The notes: generated from the letters alone by a model not told the origin. A DNA stretch of 20,175 nucleotides from Gemmatimonadota bacterium (GCA_002712305.1 PATE01000060.1:1-20175); one strand, 5' to 3'; shown: positions 4,850 through 18,490, numbered from the stretch's first letter. Numbers and translations: made by a program.

Positions 4850-4854
4850 AAGGA
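4850..4854 (+). promoter_or_regulatory. ribosome binding site that fixes the start of the giant gene
   Basis: AAGGA at 4850-4854 lies 6 nt before the GTG at 4861. An in-frame TTG at 4855 touches the site directly and would leave no spacer, so GTG 4861 is the better start. Confidence 0.65.
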
Positions 4855-4860
4855 TTGCCC

Positions 4861-7800
4861 GTGGACGACGGCGGATTCCCTCTCCGACTGGTCGAGCACT
4901 ACAACTCGCGCACGGGTATCTGGCGCGCAAGGCGAACCGCAGGAGATCTCTGCGGTGAGGCCGAACTACAGACTGGCGATCGACCGTTTGCCGAATTGAC
5001 CTGGCAGCTTGCTGACGACTCAGCCGACGATGTTGAACTGACAGCGAGGCTCGTTGAACGCGCACTGCGGCTGGTCCCCCGTCGATTCGACAGTGATCCG
5101 CGGCTGGCCGCCCTTTCTAAGAGTCTGTCGAACCGGCAGATCCCCGTCCGCTTCTTTCGCCAGCATCATCGTATTCTGGATATCGAGATCCGCGACGGCA
5201 AAGCCACCTTGGCCGTGTGTGCCGATCTCGCGCCGGCCCTGGGCGTGTCCATCGATTCAACGAAGGACGATCTCGTCGCCGACGCGCCGGAACAGCTGCG
5301 CGCCTACGAGATGTTACTCGCCCTGCTGTTGTTCTACAGCTTCGCTGTAGAGGCGGGCGACACGCCCCGTGCAGCGATGCGCTGGATCACCCGACTCTAC
5401 GATCAACTGGCCAGGCGCGAGCGCACTCACCTTCATGCCCTGTTGGAAACACGTCACCTGGACGCGGGCAATCACGTCTCCGTCTTCCTGCGTCGGGCCA
5501 GCGAACGAGAAGACACCTCGGCCGAAGGACAGCGCTGGCGAGAGCAGCAGATTACATGGCTTCTGGGTCAGGATCGGCTGGATCTGCCCTACAATCGTCG
5601 CGCCGCCATCGACGTATTGCTCTCCGAAGCTGACGTCGACGACAAACGGTTCCTCCTCTACGACGTCCTGAGGGAATACGATCGCGACATCGAAGGCGAC
5701 AATATCCTGCGTATTGCAGGACAGGTCCGAGAAGCGGGACAACAACTGATCTTCGGCCGCATGAGCCGAGCCTTCCACAATCAAGGCACCCTGTTTGCCG
5801 ACGCAGCACTGATCGCACCGCAGGCCGACTGGAGCCCGCTGGGCGAACGGTTGTGGCAGGCAGTAGAGGGGAACGCCGAGTTGGAGACGGTGGCCCTCGA
5901 ACTCAAGTTGCTTCTGCAGGGCTCACGTGAAGTGGCCCTGACGCAGCTGGAGGGAGCCTGCGAGCGATTCGAGGAGGCTGTCCTCGACGCGCAGCGCGAT
6001 GAACTCATGCACCGCATTCAGGAAGCACGCAGCCGCATCGAGGACCACGGCGACGAATTGGAGCAGCCATCCCTGCCACCGGTCACTGATGCGAGCGTCG
6101 TGGGGGCCACGCAGAACCGGCTCGGTATCGTCGACGAGATCCGCAGGCAGCTGCTGAGTGCTCCCTCGCGCGATGCCGCCTACGTCGTGATCAGTCAGCG
6201 TCCGTCGCCAACCGGTTCGCACCTGTTGGTCAAGATCAACGAATTCGATGAGCCGTATCTGGGTAAGGCGGCGAATCTGCGCAAGCTGGTACGCTTGGCC
6301 GGTGACCGGGTCTACTCCAGCCCCGACTATCGATGGTTGCGCCTGGCCGACCATTGGATCGAGGCCATCCCCCTCTTCATCAAGGAAGAGGTGCTGATCG
6401 TCGATGGCCATGAGCAGACGAGAACCGTCATCGACATCGCGGGCATGGAGGAATCCTTCCGCGAAGAGATGTCCGACCACTGGTCCGCCAATATTCAGGA
6501 TGTCTTGAGAAGCGAGTTTGCCGCAGCAGCACGACGATTGTTGTGGCAGCAGGCGAATCCACCAGACGGCGCCGGTAGTGCCGATCTGTCGGCGGGCGAC
6601 GAGCTAAGTGTCCTGAGTTGGGCCCGAACCACCTCTGAAAATGATGACACCATGACAGATGCCATCTGTCTGGTGGCCGCCGCGATCCAGAATGCCTACA
6701 TGGCCGATCCCGTGGCCGCCCAGGAGGCGGTGGAAACGGACGCGCAAGAGCCTTTCCTGGCCATGTGTTCGTGGCTCGACGAAACGCCTCCTGCCGCTGT
6801 CAGCGAGACACTGAAGTCGATGGCCACCGGTGTAACAGGTAAAGCCCTCCGCGAGGTCGGGGGCGGCCAATCGTTGGCATGGGAACGATTTGGCCCGCAC
6901 GCGCTGGCACCCCGGCGCCCCCTGCCGGTGCTGCACGTGCTTACGACGCAGTCGGCGGGGATGACGGAAGGGTATGTCCGCACCTGGCTGGAAGAGTCAA
7001 TGGCCCTCTATCAGGTCATCGAGTCTGCTGCCCTGGGTGGTGAGGTGGAAGAGCGCCAGAAACGCTTCCGTCAGCGACTCAACGCGCTGGGTGCGTGTAT
7101 CATCCGTGAACTTGGAATCTGGGTTGAAGTCGAGGAGGTTGCCGCCGAAGAAGGCATTGATCAGGGTGCGGCTGTCGGCCGCGTCGTCGGTCGAAATCGG
7201 ACGGTGCAGGAGGAGGTCGGGGTCCTGGGCGCCTTGCTCGAGTTACAGGAAGAGATGGGCACACAGCGACAGGCGGGCGATATCGACGATCCTCTTGAGG
7301 TCGCCGAAGTGCTGGCTCAGCACGAGGAATCTCTGGCAGAGGATGCCCTGCCCCGCGTTGCCGATCGCAACGGGACCACCCTTGAGGAGGCCGTCGACGA
7401 TCTGCTGCGCCGGCATCCGTCTCTGGATCGGCCCCAGGCGTTGCGGCACGTCATCGACACGGATGAAGACTTCCGACAGGACCGTACCACGTTCACGCGC
7501 TTCCTTGCCCGGCGGCGACTGTTGGAGACGTGGGCCGCGGCACAGGGCATCGACGTCGATGACCGGACTCGAACCTATACGCGTCGATACGGTCGACTCG
7601 CGAAAACAACAGCGCGCAAACAGATCGTGCTGGAGAACCAACTCCGCGGGCAGGCACTACACCCGTCTCTGAGAATGAGCGCCAAGGGTGCCAGCAAAGG
7701 ATTTCACCTCCTCTACACGCCGAGTCGAGTCGATCTGGGTCATCGAGAGCGCGAGTCTGTGGAGACCTGGTCGCAGTGGGTCGGTGGCGCCGATCGGGCG

Positions 7801-10800
7801 GCTGCGCGGGCTGGCCGTCAGATCTATGGATTGATCAACAAATCGGTCCGCAGTTTTGACAGTCTCACAGAGCCGGAAGTGCTCAAGACGGGTGAGAACG
7901 CCTCCATGGCGTCCCATTTTGCCTACTCTAATGCCATGTCCTTGATGGTCTCCGCCTCCGGGCACGGCGACGTGGAGGAGATGGGCGATCAGATGAGTCG
8001 ACGCCGTGATCGCATCATCCATCCGGCCGGTGAGGGGTATGGCGGCTACTGTGTGCCGAAGGACGGCCTGTTCCTCGAATTCGTCCTGACCCTCGGACGT
8101 CGCGAGAAGCTTCAGCAGTTGGGCATCCCCGTCGAACACCATGCGCGTGTCGCCCGTCTGGCGAATGGGCTGCTCGACCGGCGACAGGACTTTGACACTC
8201 GATTCGCGTGGGAGGCCTGGGCAGCGGGTCTGCTGAGTGACGAGCAGGCCCTGAGCGATCTGATGCAGATACGCGCCGGTCAGGGACCGGGTGCGGCGCC
8301 CATTCCTGTCTTCCAGGTGACGAGGCTGGCAGAGGTTCTCGTGGGCCTCGGCCAACCTGAATTGCGCGACCCCGAACGTGTAACGGCGGCGCTGGTCGCG
8401 CGGTGGGGCATCCACAAGATGGTTGCCGGTGCCGAGCACGTGAATCGTTTCATGCCCTTCTACAAGGCCTGGCTGCTGCGGCGAGGGCTCAACGAGGCGG
8501 AGGCACGAGGCGGCTGTTCGTCGGGCCGCCCCTTCATCGCCGTGTTCAGCGCCGAATACAAACCAGATACGCAGGACGGTCGATTCGCCGCAGGGATGCG
8601 CAAGTTCGAAATCCTCACCGGCAGTGCCCAACATCTTTTGTATGCCCTCGACTCCGACGGACAGCTGCTGGCAACCCTGCTGTCGTCTGGATACGACACG
8701 CTTGCCGCCGATGGTCGCGGTCCGAGAGTCGCCCGCCTGCTCGGTCTCGCCGACGGTGATTCACAGCAGTTGTCGACGCTGTTTCCTGCGCCGCGTGAGG
8801 TCGATGAACTGCGCGTCGTCTCCCCCACGGGCCTGTCGACGCAGGACCTGCTCTCGTACACTAGTGACACACGGCTCGAACAGATCGCCGAGGAGGCGCG
8901 TTCGATGCTGTTGGCTGCCGGCCTGTCCGAAGCCGAAATCGAGGCCAATGTGGTCTCCTTTGGCCCCCGCCTTCGCCGTTGGGCTACGTCAGCCCCCTTT
9001 GAGGCGAGCGACCTGGATGCCCTTGCCCTACGCGTTGGATCGTCGATCCACGCCCTGTGCCTGCAGGTGGCCGGTCCCGAACGTTCCTACGAGCACGCCT
9101 TGCAGGGCGCAGATGTTCTCGACCTGGGCATCCCCCACCAGGAGTTGCTCGATCTGATGGGAGATCCGGCCCGAGTCGTGCGGCTCATGCTCGAAGGTCG
9201 ACAGGACAGTGCGTTGGTCATCGTCGACGGAGCCTCGGGGGCGCGACGTCGTGCGCTGAATCGTGTGGATGTCATGTTGTGGTTCGCCGTGGCCGAGCGC
9301 ATGGACCGAGAGTCGAGTTATGTCTCCATCGGCCTGGGCGCCAGCACCGTCGAATCCTGGCGGGTCACCATGAGTCGTCAGCGAGATCGCTCCAGCCGCC
9401 TGCTCACGGCTCTTGAATCGGGTGCCCGTCAAGAAGCAGAGACGTTGTATACGCGAATCATCGACGACATGCACAACGAGCAGGAGGCTCAGCTGCAGTT
9501 GGCAGAGATCGCCAAGTTGCGTCGTTTTGGACGACTGCGGAGTCGTGATGAAGCCCTCGCCCGCTCCCTGGCCGACATCGTCGCAGGAAGACCTCTGGTG
9601 GAGTTGACCTTCCTCGATTTCCTCGCTCTCGGCGGCCTGTTTCTTCTCGACGGCGCACAGCGCTCCGAAGTGACCCGTGTGCACAGCGCCTTGTCGAAGG
9701 GTCTGGTCGCCCTGGGCGCCCAGGGTTGGCCCGCATGGGAGCAAGAGCCAGCCGCCGATTGGGTGAATGTCGAGTCACCTCCGGCTCTGGAAGATTTCAG
9801 GGAGGAAAAGGGGCTCGAGAGTTCGAACAAAGCCTCTGAGGACCGCCCCGTGGTCGCCCTCGAAGCACGCAGCCAGCTTGCGGCGCGTGTTGAACAGGCG
9901 CGGGCACTCAATGAACGCCAGTTGGCCTACCAGGCCGTGGACACGGACAGCATCTCCTTTGATGAGGCCTACAGCTGCGCGAAAGCGGCCCTCGGTTCGG
10001 GGGACGAAGATGTCAGCGAGGCGGCCTTTGGCACCTTTCTGGGCTACTCACGCAACGCGTTGTTCGCCCTGGTCAGCCAGATGTATCAGGAGGACAACGC
10101 CGAAAACGCTCAGCGTTTTGTCGAACACCTGTCGCAGCTGTTTCTGGGGCGACAGATCGACAACGAACACTGGCGACTCATCGCCGGTGGTTATGAAGAT
10201 CTGGGCGACTTCGGTCGCCTCGCCCAGGTCGTCTCCGAACAAGGCGGGGACGACGAACAGCGTCGGAAGCGACTCGATATGGTCGCACGCGGAGCTGAAC
10301 TGTTCTACATCCTGCTTGCCGTCGACAGCGTATTGCCTCACATCCGCGGCGATGGCGATCCGCCCTCACTGTGGCGCGCCCTGGCGGATTTCTTCGCCGA
10401 GACGATCAACGACCACTTCCACGAGTATCGACCTTGGGTGTACTCGCGTGGGATGGGTTTTGCAGATCTGAAGGGAGAGGAACTCTACGAGTTCTCAGTA
10501 CATCATCACGCGTGGTTGTACCGCTATCTGCGACGTGTCGTGACGTGTTATACAGAGGTGTCCGCACTGCCAGATCAGGAGCAGGATCTGTTGCTGGGGA
10601 ACTACCTCGATGACGCCCAGATCAGCGCCATCGGTGCCGGTGCCGCGACACAGATCGAAAGACACTGGCGATCCTATGGTCAGTTGCGTGAACTGGCGTT
10701 CATCCGCAACGACGGGTTCCCCCTGCCGGAGGTCTTCGTCGATTTCGACCCCGACCTCATCGACGCCGATCAGCGCGTGAACCACGTCATCGCCTTGCCC

Positions 10801-12333
10801 GTAGGACGCACCCACTATTCGCGCGCCCTGCGCGAGGCCCCGACGCTGACCCGTGAGTTGGTCGAACAGGGGCAGCCCGGGGCGAATCTCATCATCACCC
10901 GTCGCGTCGAGTTTACCGAGGACAAACCCCATCCGCAGGCGGTCGTCGATGGCGGTCATCTGTATCTGAGTGGCGAGGCGTATGAAGAGGCGCTGAGACG
11001 TCACAAGGGACTGACCAGCACAGCAGCCAAGACAGCGGCAAAAGCCACCCATGCGAAGGGGAGGCGAATTGCGGCCCGCTTTGCGCACCCGGTTCGGGCG
11101 GCAGTCGTTTACCCCTTTCACGGCGATCCCGCCTATCTCGACGGCCGCCTGGAGGATTGCGGCCTGCCCTATTCGGTGCAGTCCCTGTTTCACACGTGGA
11201 CGACGTACGACAAGGCCAAGTATCCGGATATCTTCGAGCCGCAAGACGGGGTCGACACACCCAGAGAGATCGATTGGCTCGCTGTCGACACCGAGCGGGC
11301 GCCGGATGAGGCCACAGCACGCAGGTGGATCGCCGAGGGCACCGACGATGGAGTCTATCCCGGTCTGCGAACCTTCGCCGACGAGCACCGACTGGTAATG
11401 ATCAAGGATGCCGCTGAGTCGGGGGGGCGCAATGCCAGGGCTTTTGTGCTGCGAACCGTCGGAGCCACAACGATCGATAAGAGTGCCCTGGAAGAGGCGG
11501 TAGATTTCATCTACCAGGTCTCGCTGCGACACAATGTGGCGATTCAGGAAGTCATTGTTTCTTCGCCCGAATACTGGGCGACGCCGGCCTTCATCGAAGA
11601 CTTTGTGCATCGCCAGATCATCGAGTGGGGATCTGCGGTGGAGCGCGATCGTCGACCTCGATCGCCCTTGTATGGTTCACATCGGGTGATCGTCTCCACC
11701 GACGATCCAAGATCGGACGATCCCGATCGCTGGCATCTGTCTCACTGGATCACGCTCAACAGCAAGCAGCTGATCACGAATGTGGGTCGTGGTGGCTGTC
11801 TGGAACAGTTCCTGCCTCAATACATCGAGCCTCGTCATCGTGACGCTCTTTACGAGGGTTTGCGCAATGCGGCGCGTGCCGCCATGGATGCCCTGGCCGC
11901 GTACGAGGAGCGTGAGGGTGAAACCTATGAGGCCGAAACCGGTCGCAAGGTGGGCAAGGATCTGGCGGGGATCTCCTACGGCATGCCGCGATATCTGATG
12001 CTCGACTATCTGATCACGCCCCGCTTCGCCGAAGAGGGCGATCTGGTGGAGGTCCGCCAGCAGGAGGGTGGAGCCGTCTTCGTCCTTCAGCAGGGCGACA
12101 AGAGGCTTCACGGTACGGTAACGGGTTGGCGTGTGGTGCTGATCGAGCCCAATATCGGCGTCGGCCTGTGGGATCGGGTCGCCCTTCGCGAGGAGGCCCA
12201 TGAGTTGGCTGCCAGTCGCCGAGAGAATCGACCCTTCGAATGGGATCGAGTCGGCGAAAACGCTCGCATCGTGTTGCGTGACCTCACCAGAGCCGGTGAG
12301 CAGTATCTGAAGGCTCTTGGCGAAAAGGCCTGA
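4861..12333 (+). CDS. giant (2490-residue) protein of unknown function with C-terminal ATP-grasp-like domain
   Basis: One uninterrupted 7.5-kb frame, mostly helical, with no signal peptide or convincing membrane segment (residues 148-162 are hydrophobic but short), so probably cytosolic. I recognise no family for residues 1 to about 2060. A compact central region (about 1000-1350) looks enzymatic: it holds HPAGEGYGGYCVPKDG with Cys1064 and, further on, FIAVFSAEYKPD. Polar linkers lie near 1640-1665 and 2050-2065. From about 2070 the pattern is that of an ATP-grasp ligase: a pre-domain with GLPY (2101-2104) and TYDKAKY around Lys2118, Lys2182 before a glycine-rich turn ESGGRN, QEVIV at Glu2230, NVGRGG from Asn2307, MLDYLI with Asp2382, and IEPN with Glu2429 and Asn2431 as likely metal ligands. 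It is coupled to a second ATP-grasp gene 2 nt downstream. The reading frame is certain, the ATP-grasp call is from motifs by eye, and the overall function is unknown. Confidence 0.8.
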   Translation: MDDGGFPLRLVEHYNSRTGIWRARRTAGDLCGEAELQTGDRPFAELTWQLADDSADDVELTARLVERALRLVPRRFDSDPRLAALSKSLSNRQIPVRFFRQHHRILDIEIRDGKATLAVCADLAPALGVSIDSTKDDLVADAPEQLRAYEMLLALLLFYSFAVEAGDTPRAAMRWITRLYDQLARRERTHLHALLETRHLDAGNHVSVFLRRASEREDTSAEGQRWREQQITWLLGQDRLDLPYNRRAAIDVLLSEADVDDKRFLLYDVLREYDRDIEGDNILRIAGQVREAGQQLIFGRMSRAFHNQGTLFADAALIAPQADWSPLGERLWQAVEGNAELETVALELKLLLQGSREVALTQLEGACERFEEAVLDAQRDELMHRIQEARSRIEDHGDELEQPSLPPVTDASVVGATQNRLGIVDEIRRQLLSAPSRDAAYVVISQRPSPTGSHLLVKINEFDEPYLGKAANLRKLVRLAGDRVYSSPDYRWLRLADHWIEAIPLFIKEEVLIVDGHEQTRTVIDIAGMEESFREEMSDHWSANIQDVLRSEFAAAARRLLWQQANPPDGAGSADLSAGDELSVLSWARTTSENDDTMTDAICLVAAAIQNAYMADPVAAQEAVETDAQEPFLAMCSWLDETPPAAVSETLKSMATGVTGKALREVGGGQSLAWERFGPHALAPRRPLPVLHVLTTQSAGMTEGYVRTWLEESMALYQVIESAALGGEVEERQKRFRQRLNALGACIIRELGIWVEVEEVAAEEGIDQGAAVGRVVGRNRTVQEEVGVLGALLELQEEMGTQRQAGDIDDPLEVAEVLAQHEESLAEDALPRVADRNGTTLEEAVDDLLRRHPSLDRPQALRHVIDTDEDFRQDRTTFTRFLARRRLLETWAAAQGIDVDDRTRTYTRRYGRLAKTTARKQIVLENQLRGQALHPSLRMSAKGASKGFHLLYTPSRVDLGHRERESVETWSQWVGGADRAAARAGRQIYGLINKSVRSFDSLTEPEVLKTGENASMASHFAYSNAMSLMVSASGHGDVEEMGDQMSRRRDRIIHPAGEGYGGYCVPKDGLFLEFVLTLGRREKLQQLGIPVEHHARVARLANGLLDRRQDFDTRFAWEAWAAGLLSDEQALSDLMQIRAGQGPGAAPIPVFQVTRLAEVLVGLGQPELRDPERVTAALVARWGIHKMVAGAEHVNRFMPFYKAWLLRRGLNEAEARGGCSSGRPFIAVFSAEYKPDTQDGRFAAGMRKFEILTGSAQHLLYALDSDGQLLATLLSSGYDTLAADGRGPRVARLLGLADGDSQQLSTLFPAPREVDELRVVSPTGLSTQDLLSYTSDTRLEQIAEEARSMLLAAGLSEAEIEANVVSFGPRLRRWATSAPFEASDLDALALRVGSSIHALCLQVAGPERSYEHALQGADVLDLGIPHQELLDLMGDPARVVRLMLEGRQDSALVIVDGASGARRRALNRVDVMLWFAVAERMDRESSYVSIGLGASTVESWRVTMSRQRDRSSRLLTALESGARQEAETLYTRIIDDMHNEQEAQLQLAEIAKLRRFGRLRSRDEALARSLADIVAGRPLVELTFLDFLALGGLFLLDGAQRSEVTRVHSALSKGLVALGAQGWPAWEQEPAADWVNVESPPALEDFREEKGLESSNKASEDRPVVALEARSQLAARVEQARALNERQLAYQAVDTDSISFDEAYSCAKAALGSGDEDVSEAAFGTFLGYSRNALFALVSQMYQEDNAENAQRFVEHLSQLFLGRQIDNEHWRLIAGGYEDLGDFGRLAQVVSEQGGDDEQRRKRLDMVARGAELFYILLAVDSVLPHIRGDGDPPSLWRALADFFAETINDHFHEYRPWVYSRGMGFADLKGEELYEFSVHHHAWLYRYLRRVVTCYTEVSALPDQEQDLLLGNYLDDAQISAIGAGAATQIERHWRSYGQLRELAFIRNDGFPLPEVFVDFDPDLIDADQRVNHVIALPVGRTHYSRALREAPTLTRELVEQGQPGANLIITRRVEFTEDKPHPQAVVDGGHLYLSGEAYEEALRRHKGLTSTAAKTAAKATHAKGRRIAARFAHPVRAAVVYPFHGDPAYLDGRLEDCGLPYSVQSLFHTWTTYDKAKYPDIFEPQDGVDTPREIDWLAVDTERAPDEATARRWIAEGTDDGVYPGLRTFADEHRLVMIKDAAESGGRNARAFVLRTVGATTIDKSALEEAVDFIYQVSLRHNVAIQEVIVSSPEYWATPAFIEDFVHRQIIEWGSAVERDRRPRSPLYGSHRVIVSTDDPRSDDPDRWHLSHWITLNSKQLITNVGRGGCLEQFLPQYIEPRHRDALYEGLRNAARAAMDALAAYEEREGETYEAETGRKVGKDLAGISYGMPRYLMLDYLITPRFAEEGDLVEVRQQEGGAVFVLQQGDKRLHGTVTGWRVVLIEPNIGVGLWDRVALREEAHELAASRRENRPFEWDRVGENARIVLRDLTRAGEQYLKALGEKA

Positions 12334-12335
12334 GC

Positions 12336-13775
12336 GTGGATCTTCACCTGACCCAAGACCTGCAAAAAGCCTGGCACGAGGCAACCGATGCGCTGGGACT
12401 TGCCCGAGGCACCCGCCTGGATTCGACATCGGCTACGGCCCTGCTGCGTCGATGTCTGGCAATGGGGCCGGCAACTGGCGAGAGCACTACACCGTTGCCG
12501 CCCCCTGAACGATTGGTGCGTCTTCGGGGTCAGTTGCCACAACTGGCCTCGTGCCTGGTCGAGGGAGCCGCTGCGCAGGTGGCTCAGGCCCTGGAGGATC
12601 CCACGTACTGCCGTCGATTGGTTGAGTTGGCTGCCGACCTGCGGATGAGTGAGCGCATGGCACCTGAGATCTGCCTCGCGATCCGAGCGGATTCGATGGA
12701 GATGCTCTCCGAAGCACCCCTCGACGCGGTGATCTTCGCCGACCCCCAACTCATCGGGCATGAGTTGTATCCGCTGTGCATCGACGCCTGCGTAGCAGCA
12801 GGGCCGAAACACGTGCCGGTGGGAGTGCACTTGGATTGGCTCGTGGGCGACTCTGCGACCAGAGTGATCCACTACGATCTGGAAGAGGATCGATTCATCG
12901 AAATGTCGTTGGTGACACCCCGTCGGCTCGACCGGGCCTTGCCACTGGCCCTGGGTGCCGATGAGCAGCACCACCACCGTACGCTGGATGAGCTCTTTGC
13001 AGAGCGCTGCCGGAACCGTTTTCATGCCGCCGAGACGCTCGATCACAAGGCGATTTCCGCAGCCACGTGGTCGAAGCTCGGCCTGTCCATTCCCTCTCAG
13101 ACGGTGTGCCCCGTAGGCGATGTGGACGGTGCACGACAGGTGCTGAGCGCCGGGGGTGAGTGGGTGCTCAAGCCAGAAGCGTCGACGGGGGGGCAGGGCG
13201 TGGTCTTGCTGGAAGGGCCCATGGAGCTGCATCAGACATCCGACGACCTCGTCGAGTCCCTGCAGATCTGCTGGGCTCATGGTGATGCCGTCATCGAAGA
13301 ACGACGTGACGGACTCGCATATCGAGATGACCACGAGAAAGATCACAGTCTCGTCATCAGGTTGCATGTCACATCGACACCCGGCGGCCTGCACGTGGAA
13401 TCTGGCTGCGCCATCATCGGTGGCGACGACCTGACACCGGCAAGTTTCCATCACGGCGGGCGATCGATTGAACTGAGACAGGCCCTGGGCCAACTCGCCA
13501 GCCGCCGCGGAGAGTGGATCTGCGTCGATGTGGCACAGATCATCACCGACCTGCAGCAGACGGCGACGGCAGCGGTAACCGCTGTTGCCGACCTCGATCT
13601 GGTCGGTGTGGATCTGGTCCTCGATCTTGTGGGCAACAGGGTCGTGCCCGTACTGATCGAGGCAAATGCCCGTCCCGCCGGGCTGATCCATTCTCGTCGA
13701 CTCTCGGATGGATTGGCGGGTGTGTCCAATTCTCTCTGGACGACACCGGTGGTCAAACAAGAGACGGTGTCGTGA
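12336..13775 (+). CDS. ATP-grasp domain protein (putative carboxylate-amine/thiol-type ligase)
   Basis: This is a 479-residue soluble protein. Residues 1 to about 225 are an unfamiliar, mostly helical N-terminal domain. An ATP-grasp fold follows: a pre-grasp helix with LDHKAISAATWSKLGL (235-250), an ATP-binding strand WVLKPEASTGGQGV with Lys279 and the glycine loop, a second strand AVIEERRDG near Glu321, and the metal-binding end VGVDLVLD (423-430) then VLIEANARPAG with Glu442 and Asn444. Such enzymes make an acyl-phosphate and join a carboxylate to a nucleophile; nothing visible gives the substrate. The GTG start is 2 nt after the giant gene's stop and has AAAAGG about 7 nt upstream. The stop overlaps the next start by 4 nt (GTGA). 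It is clearly different in sequence from the ATP-grasp module ending the giant protein, so it is not a simple local duplication. Confidence 0.85.
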   Translation: MDLHLTQDLQKAWHEATDALGLARGTRLDSTSATALLRRCLAMGPATGESTTPLPPPERLVRLRGQLPQLASCLVEGAAAQVAQALEDPTYCRRLVELAADLRMSERMAPEICLAIRADSMEMLSEAPLDAVIFADPQLIGHELYPLCIDACVAAGPKHVPVGVHLDWLVGDSATRVIHYDLEEDRFIEMSLVTPRRLDRALPLALGADEQHHHRTLDELFAERCRNRFHAAETLDHKAISAATWSKLGLSIPSQTVCPVGDVDGARQVLSAGGEWVLKPEASTGGQGVVLLEGPMELHQTSDDLVESLQICWAHGDAVIEERRDGLAYRDDHEKDHSLVIRLHVTSTPGGLHVESGCAIIGGDDLTPASFHHGGRSIELRQALGQLASRRGEWICVDVAQIITDLQQTATAAVTAVADLDLVGVDLVLDLVGNRVVPVLIEANARPAGLIHSRRLSDGLAGVSNSLWTTPVVKQETVS

Positions 13776-15625
13776 AGGAAGCGGGAGCACGTCTTCTAAC
13801 CACGAAGACCATCGAAGACGCCCGGGGTCTGATCGATCAGGCCCTGCGTGAGGTCCGAGATGAGACGGGCCTGAAAGATCGGCGGGAGCTTCTGCGCACC
13901 CTGGTCCTCGGTGGTCTGAGCGAGACGCTGAATGTGGCCCCTGGCATCGACCATCTGCTCAATGCCATGCCGGCAGAAGAATGGGAAGTGCAGTTCGGAC
14001 CGGCCGTGGAAAAGGAACTTCCCGGCTTGCTCGTCGACGTCGTGGATAGCATGGCCGATGTACCCCACGTCGATGTGCTTCGACTGATTCCGCCAGAGGC
14101 TCACAAGACGTGGGTCGCCTGTATCAAGAAGCTGAGTGGATATATCGACGGTGTGGACGAAGAGCACCGTCGACTACGCGGCATGCGCGCCTCTATGATC
14201 TTCGCCGATCTGTTTGCGCAGTTGAACGACCCTAAGATCTGGCGCCGCCGCACAGTAACACCCTGTTCGATCGACAACAAGCAGATTCGCGCACTGAAGG
14301 AAACCAAGCAGATCGACGAATTGCCCGCGGCCTACCTGGCTCGCGTGAATCAGCTGCAACGGATCGACCTGCGTCACAGTCTTCTCGCCGTAAGCAGTGA
14401 CGACCTGGCCGGACAGATGTCCCAGGAGGACGCGGAGCTGCGCTTTGAGGTGCGGTCCCCATTGCGTCTCGGCCTGTCGAGTGCCAACGCATCGGACAAT
14501 CATGCACGCAGCAAAGAGCAGGGCGGCAAGACGCTGAATGCCGGCATCGACTTGCACACCAGCGGCAGCGATGCGCCGGCGCCGCCCCTGCACGTCACTG
14601 CACGACGACTGGCCGATCCTCGACTCGTGCTGAGATCTCGCTCTGCTGATTTCGAGGCCGACTTCGAGGCTGACCTTCGAGGGAATCCGACGACACAGAG
14701 TGAGTTGTTCTTTGCCTACAAACGTGGCGGCGACGAATCTCTGCGGATGCTCAAGCAAGCTCTCGTCCACACGGGGATCGTAGAGGACAACTCCGATGAT
14801 ATCGTCCGCGACATCGCCGGATTCACCGAAGGCGGAGGCCTTGAGATCGTCACCTCCAGCGCTGTCCTGCAAGGATCAGGTCTGGGCACCAGTAGTATTC
14901 TGGCGGCATCCATTCTCAAAGTGTTGTATCGCCTGGCTCAGCATAGTGCCGGTGGTGCTGAGGAGTATCCCTTCCTCTACGACCAGAGTGTTCTTCTAGA
15001 GCAGTCCATCGGGCTGAACTCGGGCTGGCAGGATGCCCGCGGCGCGTGCGGCGGATCGAGTGCGGTCAAGGATTTCTACGCCCCACCAACAGCTGGCCTG
15101 CCCACCCCGGAGATGTGCTTCGTCGACGTCGACGAGGACATATTCCATCAGCGTGTCGTCCTTTTCGACACAGGAATTGCTCGAGGCGCGACGCGAGGGC
15201 TCAATGTTATACTCGAGAGTTATCTGCGCCGAGACCGGGATCGATACAGCGCCATGCGGAAGTCTCTCGCGATCCATGATGAGATCGTCGAGGCCCTGAG
15301 CCAGGGAGACTACCCGCGGCTCGGAGCGTTGGCCAGTCGCTATTGGGCGTATCGCTGCGTCCTTGATCCGGAAGCGACCAGCGACGCCATTCAACAGTTG
15401 TTCTCCGCTCCCCTGTCCGATCTTCACGAAGGAGGGATGCTGACCGGCGCCGGTGGCGGCGGTTTTGCCCTCCTTATTGCCCGCGAAGGTGAAGAGGAGA
15501 GCCTTAGAGAGTGTCTGTCCAAAATGAAGGACCAGCGCGCATACGCCAGCAGCGCCGTCGTCGACTACCGACTGAATCGAACGGGACTTCAGCTCGAAAC
15601 AAGCCCCGCAGAGGCGACGGGATGA
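13772..15625 (+). CDS. GHMP-family kinase, L-fucokinase-like, with unknown N-terminal domain
   Basis: This is a 617-residue protein. Residues from about 224 to the end form a GHMP kinase: a first strand at EVRSPLRLGL (226-235), then a stretch like the fucokinase TLNAGIDL and LVLRSRS segments, the phosphate loop GSGLGTSSILA (from Gly368), SGWQDARG with candidate catalytic Asp421, and the third GHMP motif GAGGGGF at 559-565. The GSGLGTSS loop and GWQD motif most resemble L-fucokinase and the kinase half of FKP, with sugar-1-kinase activity. The first 220 residues are helical and unrecognised; they are far too short for FKP's GDP-fucose pyrophosphorylase half. I chose the GTG at 13772, which overlaps the upstream TGA; the frame is open further back only inside the ATP-grasp gene. 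The substrate is unproven and may be a heptose or another polyol. Confidence 0.85.
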   Translation: MKEAGARLLTTKTIEDARGLIDQALREVRDETGLKDRRELLRTLVLGGLSETLNVAPGIDHLLNAMPAEEWEVQFGPAVEKELPGLLVDVVDSMADVPHVDVLRLIPPEAHKTWVACIKKLSGYIDGVDEEHRRLRGMRASMIFADLFAQLNDPKIWRRRTVTPCSIDNKQIRALKETKQIDELPAAYLARVNQLQRIDLRHSLLAVSSDDLAGQMSQEDAELRFEVRSPLRLGLSSANASDNHARSKEQGGKTLNAGIDLHTSGSDAPAPPLHVTARRLADPRLVLRSRSADFEADFEADLRGNPTTQSELFFAYKRGGDESLRMLKQALVHTGIVEDNSDDIVRDIAGFTEGGGLEIVTSSAVLQGSGLGTSSILAASILKVLYRLAQHSAGGAEEYPFLYDQSVLLEQSIGLNSGWQDARGACGGSSAVKDFYAPPTAGLPTPEMCFVDVDEDIFHQRVVLFDTGIARGATRGLNVILESYLRRDRDRYSAMRKSLAIHDEIVEALSQGDYPRLGALASRYWAYRCVLDPEATSDAIQQLFSAPLSDLHEGGMLTGAGGGGFALLIAREGEEESLRECLSKMKDQRAYASSAVVDYRLNRTGLQLETSPAEATG

Positions 15626-17299: not shown

Positions 17300-18490
17300 A
17301 TGGCCCAGGTTCACATCATCCGACACAATCCAGGCGCCGTCTTCTGCAACCCGTGCGAAGTCATCCAAGTCGATGACGATGGCAAGATCACGCGTCTCAT
17401 CGAGCCCAGCGGCAATGTGGGCACCCAATATGCCAACAACATCGGCGCCGAATGGTTCGGCACCATCGAGAATCTCAATCGCGGTCTCCAGACGTGCAAT
17501 GCACACTGGTCAGATGTATACAAGACGGATGTCCTGTGGACGACACCGTCCTTCGACCGGGATGAATGTGATCAGTTCAAGAACGACTTCAATGGCGTGT
17601 ATGGCGCCATGATCAATGCCGTGACGGGCGGTCCCATGCGCTCAAACCGGATGGCCCGGTTTACGCACCAGGAAGGGTTTCCTGACCCCGCCGCCCTCTT
17701 TGAGGTGCAGATCAAGGCCGCCCAGGGCGATGTCGAGATCGGTGGCGGCAAGCTCGACTTCGGTTCGTGGGTTGACCATCAGCCCTCTGGTGCATCAGTG
17801 ATGCACAAGAAGGGTGACGAGATGATCACGACTCTGGGCCCCGACGTGGGCAAAGAGATGGAGTTCGTCCTCGAAGAACAGTATGCGAAGGGATTTGCCG
17901 AGCAAGGGATCGATTTCCGCAAGCAGACGGTGTGGATGGAGATCCTCGTCGGCGTAGACGACGCACCCGATCAGGCGTGGGCCCGGATCGAGGCCACACG
18001 CAAGGCCTTTGAGGACTACTTCGGCGACGATCGTCCGGCGGGCCTGATCTACCCCGTGTCGAGGATTCCTAATCTCGATGGTGTTGTCGAGCCTCAGCCC
18101 CGCGTCGTGTCAGGTGATGTCGAGATCCAACGATCGGGTGAACTTGAACACGGCTTCAGCACGTGGACGAGTATCAAGCACGGAGGCATCACAGAGGCCA
18201 TGGTCTCTGCCGTTGCAGGGAATGATGCCTCAGCGATTCTCGATGGTGTCGACGAGCGTGTGAAGCAGGCTGGCGGCGAAGGACTCAAGGCCAATGGCGT
18301 CTTCAACAATGCCTACATCTTCGCTGGTGCCGACTCAAAGGCGAATCGCGACTCCCTGGCTGCCTTCAATCCGAGCTTCACAAAGTGGTATGAAGGGACG
18401 GTTCCCTCCGCTCGAACAGCGCAGTATGTCGGCGGGATCCAGCAGCAGGAGTTCGCCTACGGTGTCTCCAATCGCGCCATCTTTATCTGA
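17300..18490 (+). CDS. putative triple Rid (YjgF/YER057c/UK114-like) domain protein
   Basis: I read this 396-residue soluble protein as three tandem Rid-like units. Unit 1 (about 15-142) has a helix IENLNRGLQTCNAHWSDVYK (56-75), a strand DVLWTTPSFD (77-86), NDFNGVYGAM, then PMRSNR with Arg114 and a final strand LFEVQIKAA. Unit 2 (about 160-272) repeats this order, but the Arg position reads PAGLIYPV (246-253), so it may be inactive. Unit 3 (about 285-396) has ILDGVDERVKQAG (313-325), AAFNPSFTKWY, and PSARTAQYV with Arg372. In RidA the matching Arg binds the substrate carboxylate and the protein hydrolyses reactive enamines or imines. RidA is about 130 residues per subunit and a trimer, so one chain could form a pseudo-trimer. 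GAGGAG precedes the ATG. It leads an operon with a decarboxylase. The fold call is from pattern only. Confidence 0.6.
   Translation: MAQVHIIRHNPGAVFCNPCEVIQVDDDGKITRLIEPSGNVGTQYANNIGAEWFGTIENLNRGLQTCNAHWSDVYKTDVLWTTPSFDRDECDQFKNDFNGVYGAMINAVTGGPMRSNRMARFTHQEGFPDPAALFEVQIKAAQGDVEIGGGKLDFGSWVDHQPSGASVMHKKGDEMITTLGPDVGKEMEFVLEEQYAKGFAEQGIDFRKQTVWMEILVGVDDAPDQAWARIEATRKAFEDYFGDDRPAGLIYPVSRIPNLDGVVEPQPRVVSGDVEIQRSGELEHGFSTWTSIKHGGITEAMVSAVAGNDASAILDGVDERVKQAGGEGLKANGVFNNAYIFAGADSKANRDSLAAFNPSFTKWYEGTVPSARTAQYVGGIQQQEFAYGVSNRAIFI

Follow-up and report, generated by a model that had tools for sequence, protein, structure and literature searches.

What reaction could be served by a protein of 2490 residues whose gene is coupled to those of an ATP-grasp protein and a GHMP kinase? 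The locus lies in a window of 20,175 nucleotides, an entire contig of a fragmented assembly from a Gemmatimonadota bacterium (GCA_002712305.1 PATE01000060.1); public records list its relatives as Latescibacterota, Gemmatimonadetes or Handelsmanbacteria. The first-pass annotation had described the three genes as one unit, left the giant protein unassigned and proposed that a sugar is activated and then ligated. The coupling was confirmed in the sequence of the window: the frames for the giant, the ATP-grasp protein (479 aa) and the GHMP kinase (617 aa) follow each other in this order, with a gap of 2 nt after the giant and a 4-nt overlap (GTGA) before the kinase. The open frame of the giant extends from TTG 4855 up to a stop codon ending at 12333. 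GTG 4861, preceded by AAGGA, is its likely start, with which the annotated length of 2490 residues holds (2492 residues if TTG 4855 were used). None of the three frames is a chance ORF, because the giant can be aligned end to end with its relatives, at 41-82% identity within its own family and at 25-33% across other phyla.

Within the family, HK-NtrC-HDOD genes upstream and FabI downstream are likewise syntenic. An antisense open frame of 560 codons (12108-13790, minus strand) overlies the ATP-grasp gene and most likely results merely from codon usage at high G+C. A 396-aa protein (17300-18490, plus strand) adjoins FabI and shares 66-92% identity among same-family relatives; Pfam gave it no confident family, with weak luciferase-like and tail-sheath matches only. 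An Rfam search of the window found no match.

Table 1. Features of the locus in window coordinates. Residue numbers of the giant, here and in the text, count from TTG 4855; subtract 2 for numbering from GTG 4861.
Feature	Position	Strand	Basis
Shine-Dalgarno-like AAGGA	4850..4854	+	6-nt spacer to GTG 4861; read directly
Giant: NDP-sugar-dehydrogenase-like core and C-terminal ATP-grasp ligase (predicted)	4861..12333	+	frame, homologue identity
Predicted NDP-sugar dehydrogenase fold inflated by helical insertions, residues ~295-1330	5737..8844	+	AlphaFold model pLDDT 85; VIA Z 16-20
T697-T698, equivalent of catalytic Ser117-Thr118	6943..6948	+	invariant 62/62
Central and UDP-binding domains, residues 932-1263, strongest sequence homology	7648..8643	+	hhalign, TIGR03026
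K1011 and N1015, equivalent of Lys204 and Asn208	7885..7899	+	invariant 64/64
C1066, equivalent of catalytic thiol Cys260	8050..8052	+	invariant 64/64
Mostly helical part, residues ~1500-1970	9352..10764	+	confident predicted model, without fold assignment
Complete LysX/RimK-like ATP-grasp ligase (predicted), residues ~1973-2488 (K2184, E2431, N2433)	10771..12318	+	VIA Z 20.5
Separate ATP-grasp ligase, 479 aa	12336..13775	+	Pfam/profile searches, co-occurrence
GHMP kinase, 617 aa, fucokinase-like in C-terminal part	13772..15625	+	domain searches; PRK13412 E 1e-38

Dehydrogenase core and ATP-grasp end of the giant

The only Pfam match of the giant was to the central domain of UDP-glucose/GDP-mannose dehydrogenase, and it stayed below threshold. 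TIGR03026 aligned with residues 941-1076 at an E-value of 2.5e-15 (56 bits, where the cut-off is 189.8) and matched all 15 aligned members of the giant family. A profile built from 45 giants found NDP-sugar dehydrogenases in the PDB at an E-value of 1e-13, the UDP-binding domain included, and hhalign of the giant profile against ordinary dehydrogenases aligned 225 columns across the central and UDP-binding domains (probability 98.5, E-value 1.6e-15). The AlphaFold model of residues 140-1330 (pLDDT 85) matched whole NDP-sugar dehydrogenases with VIA Z-scores of 16-20, the match beginning near residue 297 with the first Rossmann strand. Many VIA rows for this model have a high r.m.s.d. of about 15 Å, presumably because of large insertions and domain shifts, and the rows with r.m.s.d. 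values of 2.4-5 Å span 204-299 residues. We therefore read the core as the NDP-sugar dehydrogenase fold split by long helical insertions. Sequence homology and the predicted model together indicate that the giant contains an NDP-sugar-dehydrogenase core.

The predicted structure of residues 1301-2492 (pLDDT 89) revealed a second enzyme. Residues ~1973-2488 match LysX, RimK, DcsG and D-Ala-D-Ala ligases with Z-scores up to 20.5 (r.m.s.d. 3.2, VIA), and the best LysX match aligns 270 of the 281 LysX residues. Among the giant homologues, the ATP lysine K2184 is found in 57/57 and the E-x-N metal residues E2431 and N2433 in 54/54, a conservation like that of active ATP-grasp enzymes. For the helical regions of the giant, a slight fold comparison saw no PDB match. 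The first-pass view of the giant as wholly unassignable is ruled out by the hhalign homology and by the structural matches of both the core and the C-terminal domain, to which TIGR03026 adds.

The giant resembles the 6-dehydrogenases of NDP-sugars (UDP-N-acetylhexosamine, UDP-glucose, GDP-mannose) in its fold, in its central and UDP-binding domains and in the equivalents of Thr118, Lys204, Asn208, Cys260 and Lys320. Unlike these enzymes, which have about 430 residues, it has a core of about 1,000, split by helical insertions, is devoid of GXGXXG, Tyr10, Thr83 and Glu141, and is fused to an ATP-grasp ligase. Likewise, its C terminus shares the whole ~280-residue fold and the ATP and metal residues with the LysX/ArgX/RimK and DcsG ligases, but is embedded in a megaprotein and has insertions of its own.

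To see which parts of the active site are retained, we read the giant-family alignment, with 62-64 sequences per position, against the 18 positions that are invariant among 229 NDP-sugar dehydrogenases and against the residue roles assigned to them (PMC4794789). The equivalents of E201, K204, N208, G257, G258, C260, K320 and R327 are present in 64/64 giants, K320 and R327 being residues of the UDP-binding domain, and that of Pro140 in every aligned giant. The Thr118 equivalent T698 is found in 62/62, and the Ser117 position is occupied by Thr. The equivalents of Asn287 and Asn219 are found in 61/64 and 40/64, respectively, and the Asp264 position holds Asp in 41 and Glu in 23 of the 64. The NAD-binding motif GXGXXG is absent from the giants: the loop (residues 301-306) reads G-R-x-S-R-A with invariant arginines and retains no more than one of the three glycines in either register, the register of the first strand possibly shifting by two residues between the sequence and structural alignments. 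Neither Thr83 nor Tyr10, which has a role in thioester hydrolysis (PMC4794789), is kept, and Glu141, which follows Pro140, is Ser in 62/62 giants; the replacements at the GXGXXG, Tyr10 and Glu141 sites are themselves conserved. Thus, the substrate and thiol half is intact and the NAD half rewritten. With GXGXXG and Thr83 lost and Glu141 replaced by Ser, the giant may not carry out the four-electron oxidation with NAD, and the lack of the glycine motif makes its redox partner uncertain. The altered cofactor site would be compatible with NAD(P) oxidation of the sugar or with its retention on the thiol.

Partners of the giant across genomes

The separate ATP-grasp protein by itself scores below the Pfam gathering scores, and its profile matches D-Ala-D-Ala ligase (E-value 3e-8) and LysX (8.5e-7). 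Its annotation as an ATP-grasp enzyme therefore stands, but it is not the only one of the locus, as the giant ends in another. When we examined the 52 loci with readable sequence downstream of the giant, the ATP-grasp gene was the immediate neighbour or the fusion partner of the giant in 41, from many phyla, if L099, L103, L113 and L124 are included, where the script distance starts at the last aligned residue instead of the gene end (37 by the strict script count); it was not adjacent in 11. The HMM behind this count was built without the giant fragments L106 and L130. The search proposed with the first-pass annotation thus found the linkage conserved in distant genomes. In three further loci (L083, L093 and L098) the gene lies within ~1.4 kb of the giant. 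Where it is located apart, a GHMP kinase gene comes directly after it in nearly every such locus among the cases fetched, as in the g4 genomes, the f8 genomes (L136 and L137, galactokinase-like) and L142-L145 (methanotroph-type kinase); L149 breaks off at its contig end. Neighbouring genes for the giant, the ATP-grasp enzyme and a galactokinase-like protein recur in archaea, Sumerlaeota and others. Two Omnitrophota polypeptides of 5344 and 5707 aa even combine all three components in one chain. The open frame L107:7247-23281 (5344 codons) encodes, in order, an aldose 1-epimerase, the giant, the ATP-grasp enzyme and the GHMP kinase, and L114:959-18082 (5707 codons) the last three. The last part of the L107 kinase appears to run on in an overlapping frame (L107:23245-24489), so a frameshift may divide this end.

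Two other kinds of neighbour were seen in some loci. HisF- and HisH-like genes, named by eye, lie directly 5' of the ATP-grasp/GHMP pair in L143:8080-9513, L144:4845-6291 and L145:6230-7788 (Omnitrophota-type), and a PhoU_div (DUF47) gene lies just 5' of the giant in some methanotrophs (L097:9320-9952, also L082 and L096).

Giant homologues occur in Latescibacterota, methanotrophs, Omnitrophota, Armatimonadota, Bathyarchaeota and others, with Methylovulum miyakonense and Methyloglobulus morosus as cultured carriers; searches of plasmid and phage collections with the giant gave no match, nor did the PADLOC anti-phage defence models at an E-value of 0.01. In the phylum of the window, the ATP-grasp gene was found in 19/19 giant-bearing and 0/6 giant-free genomes, and among the giant-bearing genomes reached through the loci in 30/30. 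Exactly three of the 101 genomes of the Methylovulum family have the giant; these three are also the carriers of the ATP-grasp gene, with E-values below 1e-180, and the remaining ones show weak, general ATP-grasp similarities only. Altogether, every giant-bearing genome searched (19+30+3, two of the three Methylovulum-family carriers being also among the thirty) has the ATP-grasp gene, 104/104 giant-free genomes checked are without it, and no genome is discordant; these counts are not phylogenetically independent, and the clades are far apart. The giant and the separate ATP-grasp enzyme form an obligate partnership, with which the kinase is closely associated.

The kinase itself is a GHMP kinase with fucokinase likeness in its C-terminal part, as annotated: PF00288 (GHMP N domain) scores 25.3 bits against the curated 22.3, G370, S374 and D421 are invariant, and the match with PRK13412 has an E-value of 1e-38, whereas the equivalog cut-off for FKP fucokinase is not reached (132.7 bits against 721). 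The kinases adjoining the ATP-grasp gene are of galactokinase-, fucokinase- and heptose-kinase-like types that vary by clade. The kinase of the locus shares the GHMP motifs and the catalytic Ser and Asp (S374, D421) with bifunctional fucokinase/GDP-fucose pyrophosphorylase, galactokinase and heptose kinase, but it scores far under the NCBIfam equivalog cut-offs and has an extra N-terminal region; across the clades, three kinase classes have been recruited. The kinase of methanotrophs and Omnitrophota may be glucuronokinase-like. In the tree of giants, the galactokinase-like loci and those with the methanotroph kinase occupy separate branches; the kinase was thus exchanged, with its function beside the ligase kept. 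Complete genomes of one genus (g7) encode a kinase of 55% identity but neither the giant nor the ATP-grasp gene, and in several methanotroph loci no kinase was seen nearby. The kinase is thus not strictly bound to the system, and the obligate partnership of all three genes suggested by the first-pass annotation narrows to the giant and the ATP-grasp enzyme, with their fusions and lack of discordant genomes. A small protein beginning EHLLIDGYNLIK, which resembles NYN/YacP-type nucleases, directly adjoins the fucokinase-like kinase in L138:7204-7836, L139:9228-9872 and L133:2526-3065, and does so also in places that lack the giant and the ATP-grasp gene.

Four methanotroph loci have a member of a single gene cluster next to the ATP-grasp gene or close by, and 2/2 members scanned exceed the curated GalU cut-off. 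This neighbour is the best hint that the substrate of the giant may be an NDP-sugar. The methanotroph loci share the logic of a C1 kinase and a nucleotidyltransferase with UDP-glucuronate salvage, which consists of a glucuronokinase and a pyrophosphorylase (PMC3938481), but add the giant and two ATP-grasp ligases.

A candidate sugar-acid ligation system

The explanation that we favour, and consider about equally balanced between right and wrong, is a three-component sugar-acid ligation system. The GHMP kinase would phosphorylate a sugar at C1, and a nucleotidyltransferase, GalU beside the system in some methanotrophs and the supply of the cell elsewhere, would convert it into an NDP-sugar. The core of the giant, whose fold and residues are those described above, would bind the NDP-sugar and, via C1066 together with K1011 and N1015, convert its C6 into an intermediate at the acid level. 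The LysX/RimK-like domain and the separate ATP-grasp enzyme would then activate carboxylates with ATP and couple the sugar acid to one amine or to two, which are probably amino acids; the result would be a uronamide-type conjugate or a cofactor. The homology and residues of the core, the ATP-grasp end, the co-occurrence, the fusions, GalU and the kinases argue for this system; the loss of the NAD motif, Thr83 and Glu141, the variable kinase type and ~470 residues of the giant without assignment count against it. The annotated idea of a sugar activated and then ligated likewise fits the domains (a sugar-1-kinase-type GHMP protein, GalU, the dehydrogenase core and two ATP-grasp ligases), although we infer both product and chemistry. 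More tentatively, the giants could be a new class of megasynthase, in which an acyl-type thioester on the dehydrogenase cysteine would be converted by ATP-grasp domains of the same chain and of the partner into an amide or ester conjugate that biology has so far not encountered.

A rather doubtful alternative is that the core makes no classical use of NAD and serves as a thiol station, holding the sugar on C1066 as an unhydrolysed thio(hemi)acetal or thioester that is passed to an amine via the ATP-grasp domains. The invariant Cys, Lys, Asn and nucleotide-sugar residues would suit such a role, as would the replacement of GXGXXG, Glu141 and Tyr10, the residue tied to thioester hydrolysis (PMC4794789), by other conserved residues; a thiohemiacetal is trapped in the human Glu161Gln mutant (PDB 3khu; PMC3184952). 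Against this, the register of the first strand is based on the predicted model and ranges only, and NADP or some other nucleotide could be bound by the loop arginines. Moreover, no NDP-sugar dehydrogenase is known to transfer its thioester.

It is unlikely that the genes are an ordinary surface-polysaccharide accessory, in which a salvage kinase and sugar oxidation supply a uronamide residue of capsule or lipopolysaccharide. Sugar kinases, GalU and NDP-sugar dehydrogenases are indeed families common in polysaccharide pathways, but in the clustered neighbourhoods no third family beyond ligase and kinase recurs across phyla, and the system is found in archaea and bacteria with differing envelope types. 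Quite improbable is a giant that merely senses or regulates NDP-sugar levels without a new product; the degenerate cofactor motif and the large unassigned helical regions would allow this, but the catalytic residues are invariant in both enzyme halves, and the giant is strictly paired with the ligase and associated with the kinase. There is scarcely any chance that the genes are neighbours merely through the shared ancestry of a few relatives, as the syntenic HK-NtrC-HDOD and FabI genes might suggest, since linkage and fusion in distant phyla and strict co-occurrence in unrelated clades, even where unlinked, contradict it.

The components of the putative sugar-acid ligation system belong to known superfamilies. 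Neither their combination nor the inflated core, whose cofactor site is altered, nor the system as a whole is represented in Pfam, NCBIfam or PADLOC. No model of these libraries covers the giant, and the literature searched on ATP-grasp enzymes with GHMP kinases, UDP-glucose dehydrogenases, the giant, Omnitrophota and uronic acid contained no description of the system. A family of ~2,500-residue proteins in many phyla, archaea included, with strictly matched partners but absent from curated libraries points to a missed metabolite or conjugate. If the altered cofactor site is real, a sugar-nucleotide dehydrogenase would have been turned into something else. The cultured methanotroph carriers make product and function directly testable.
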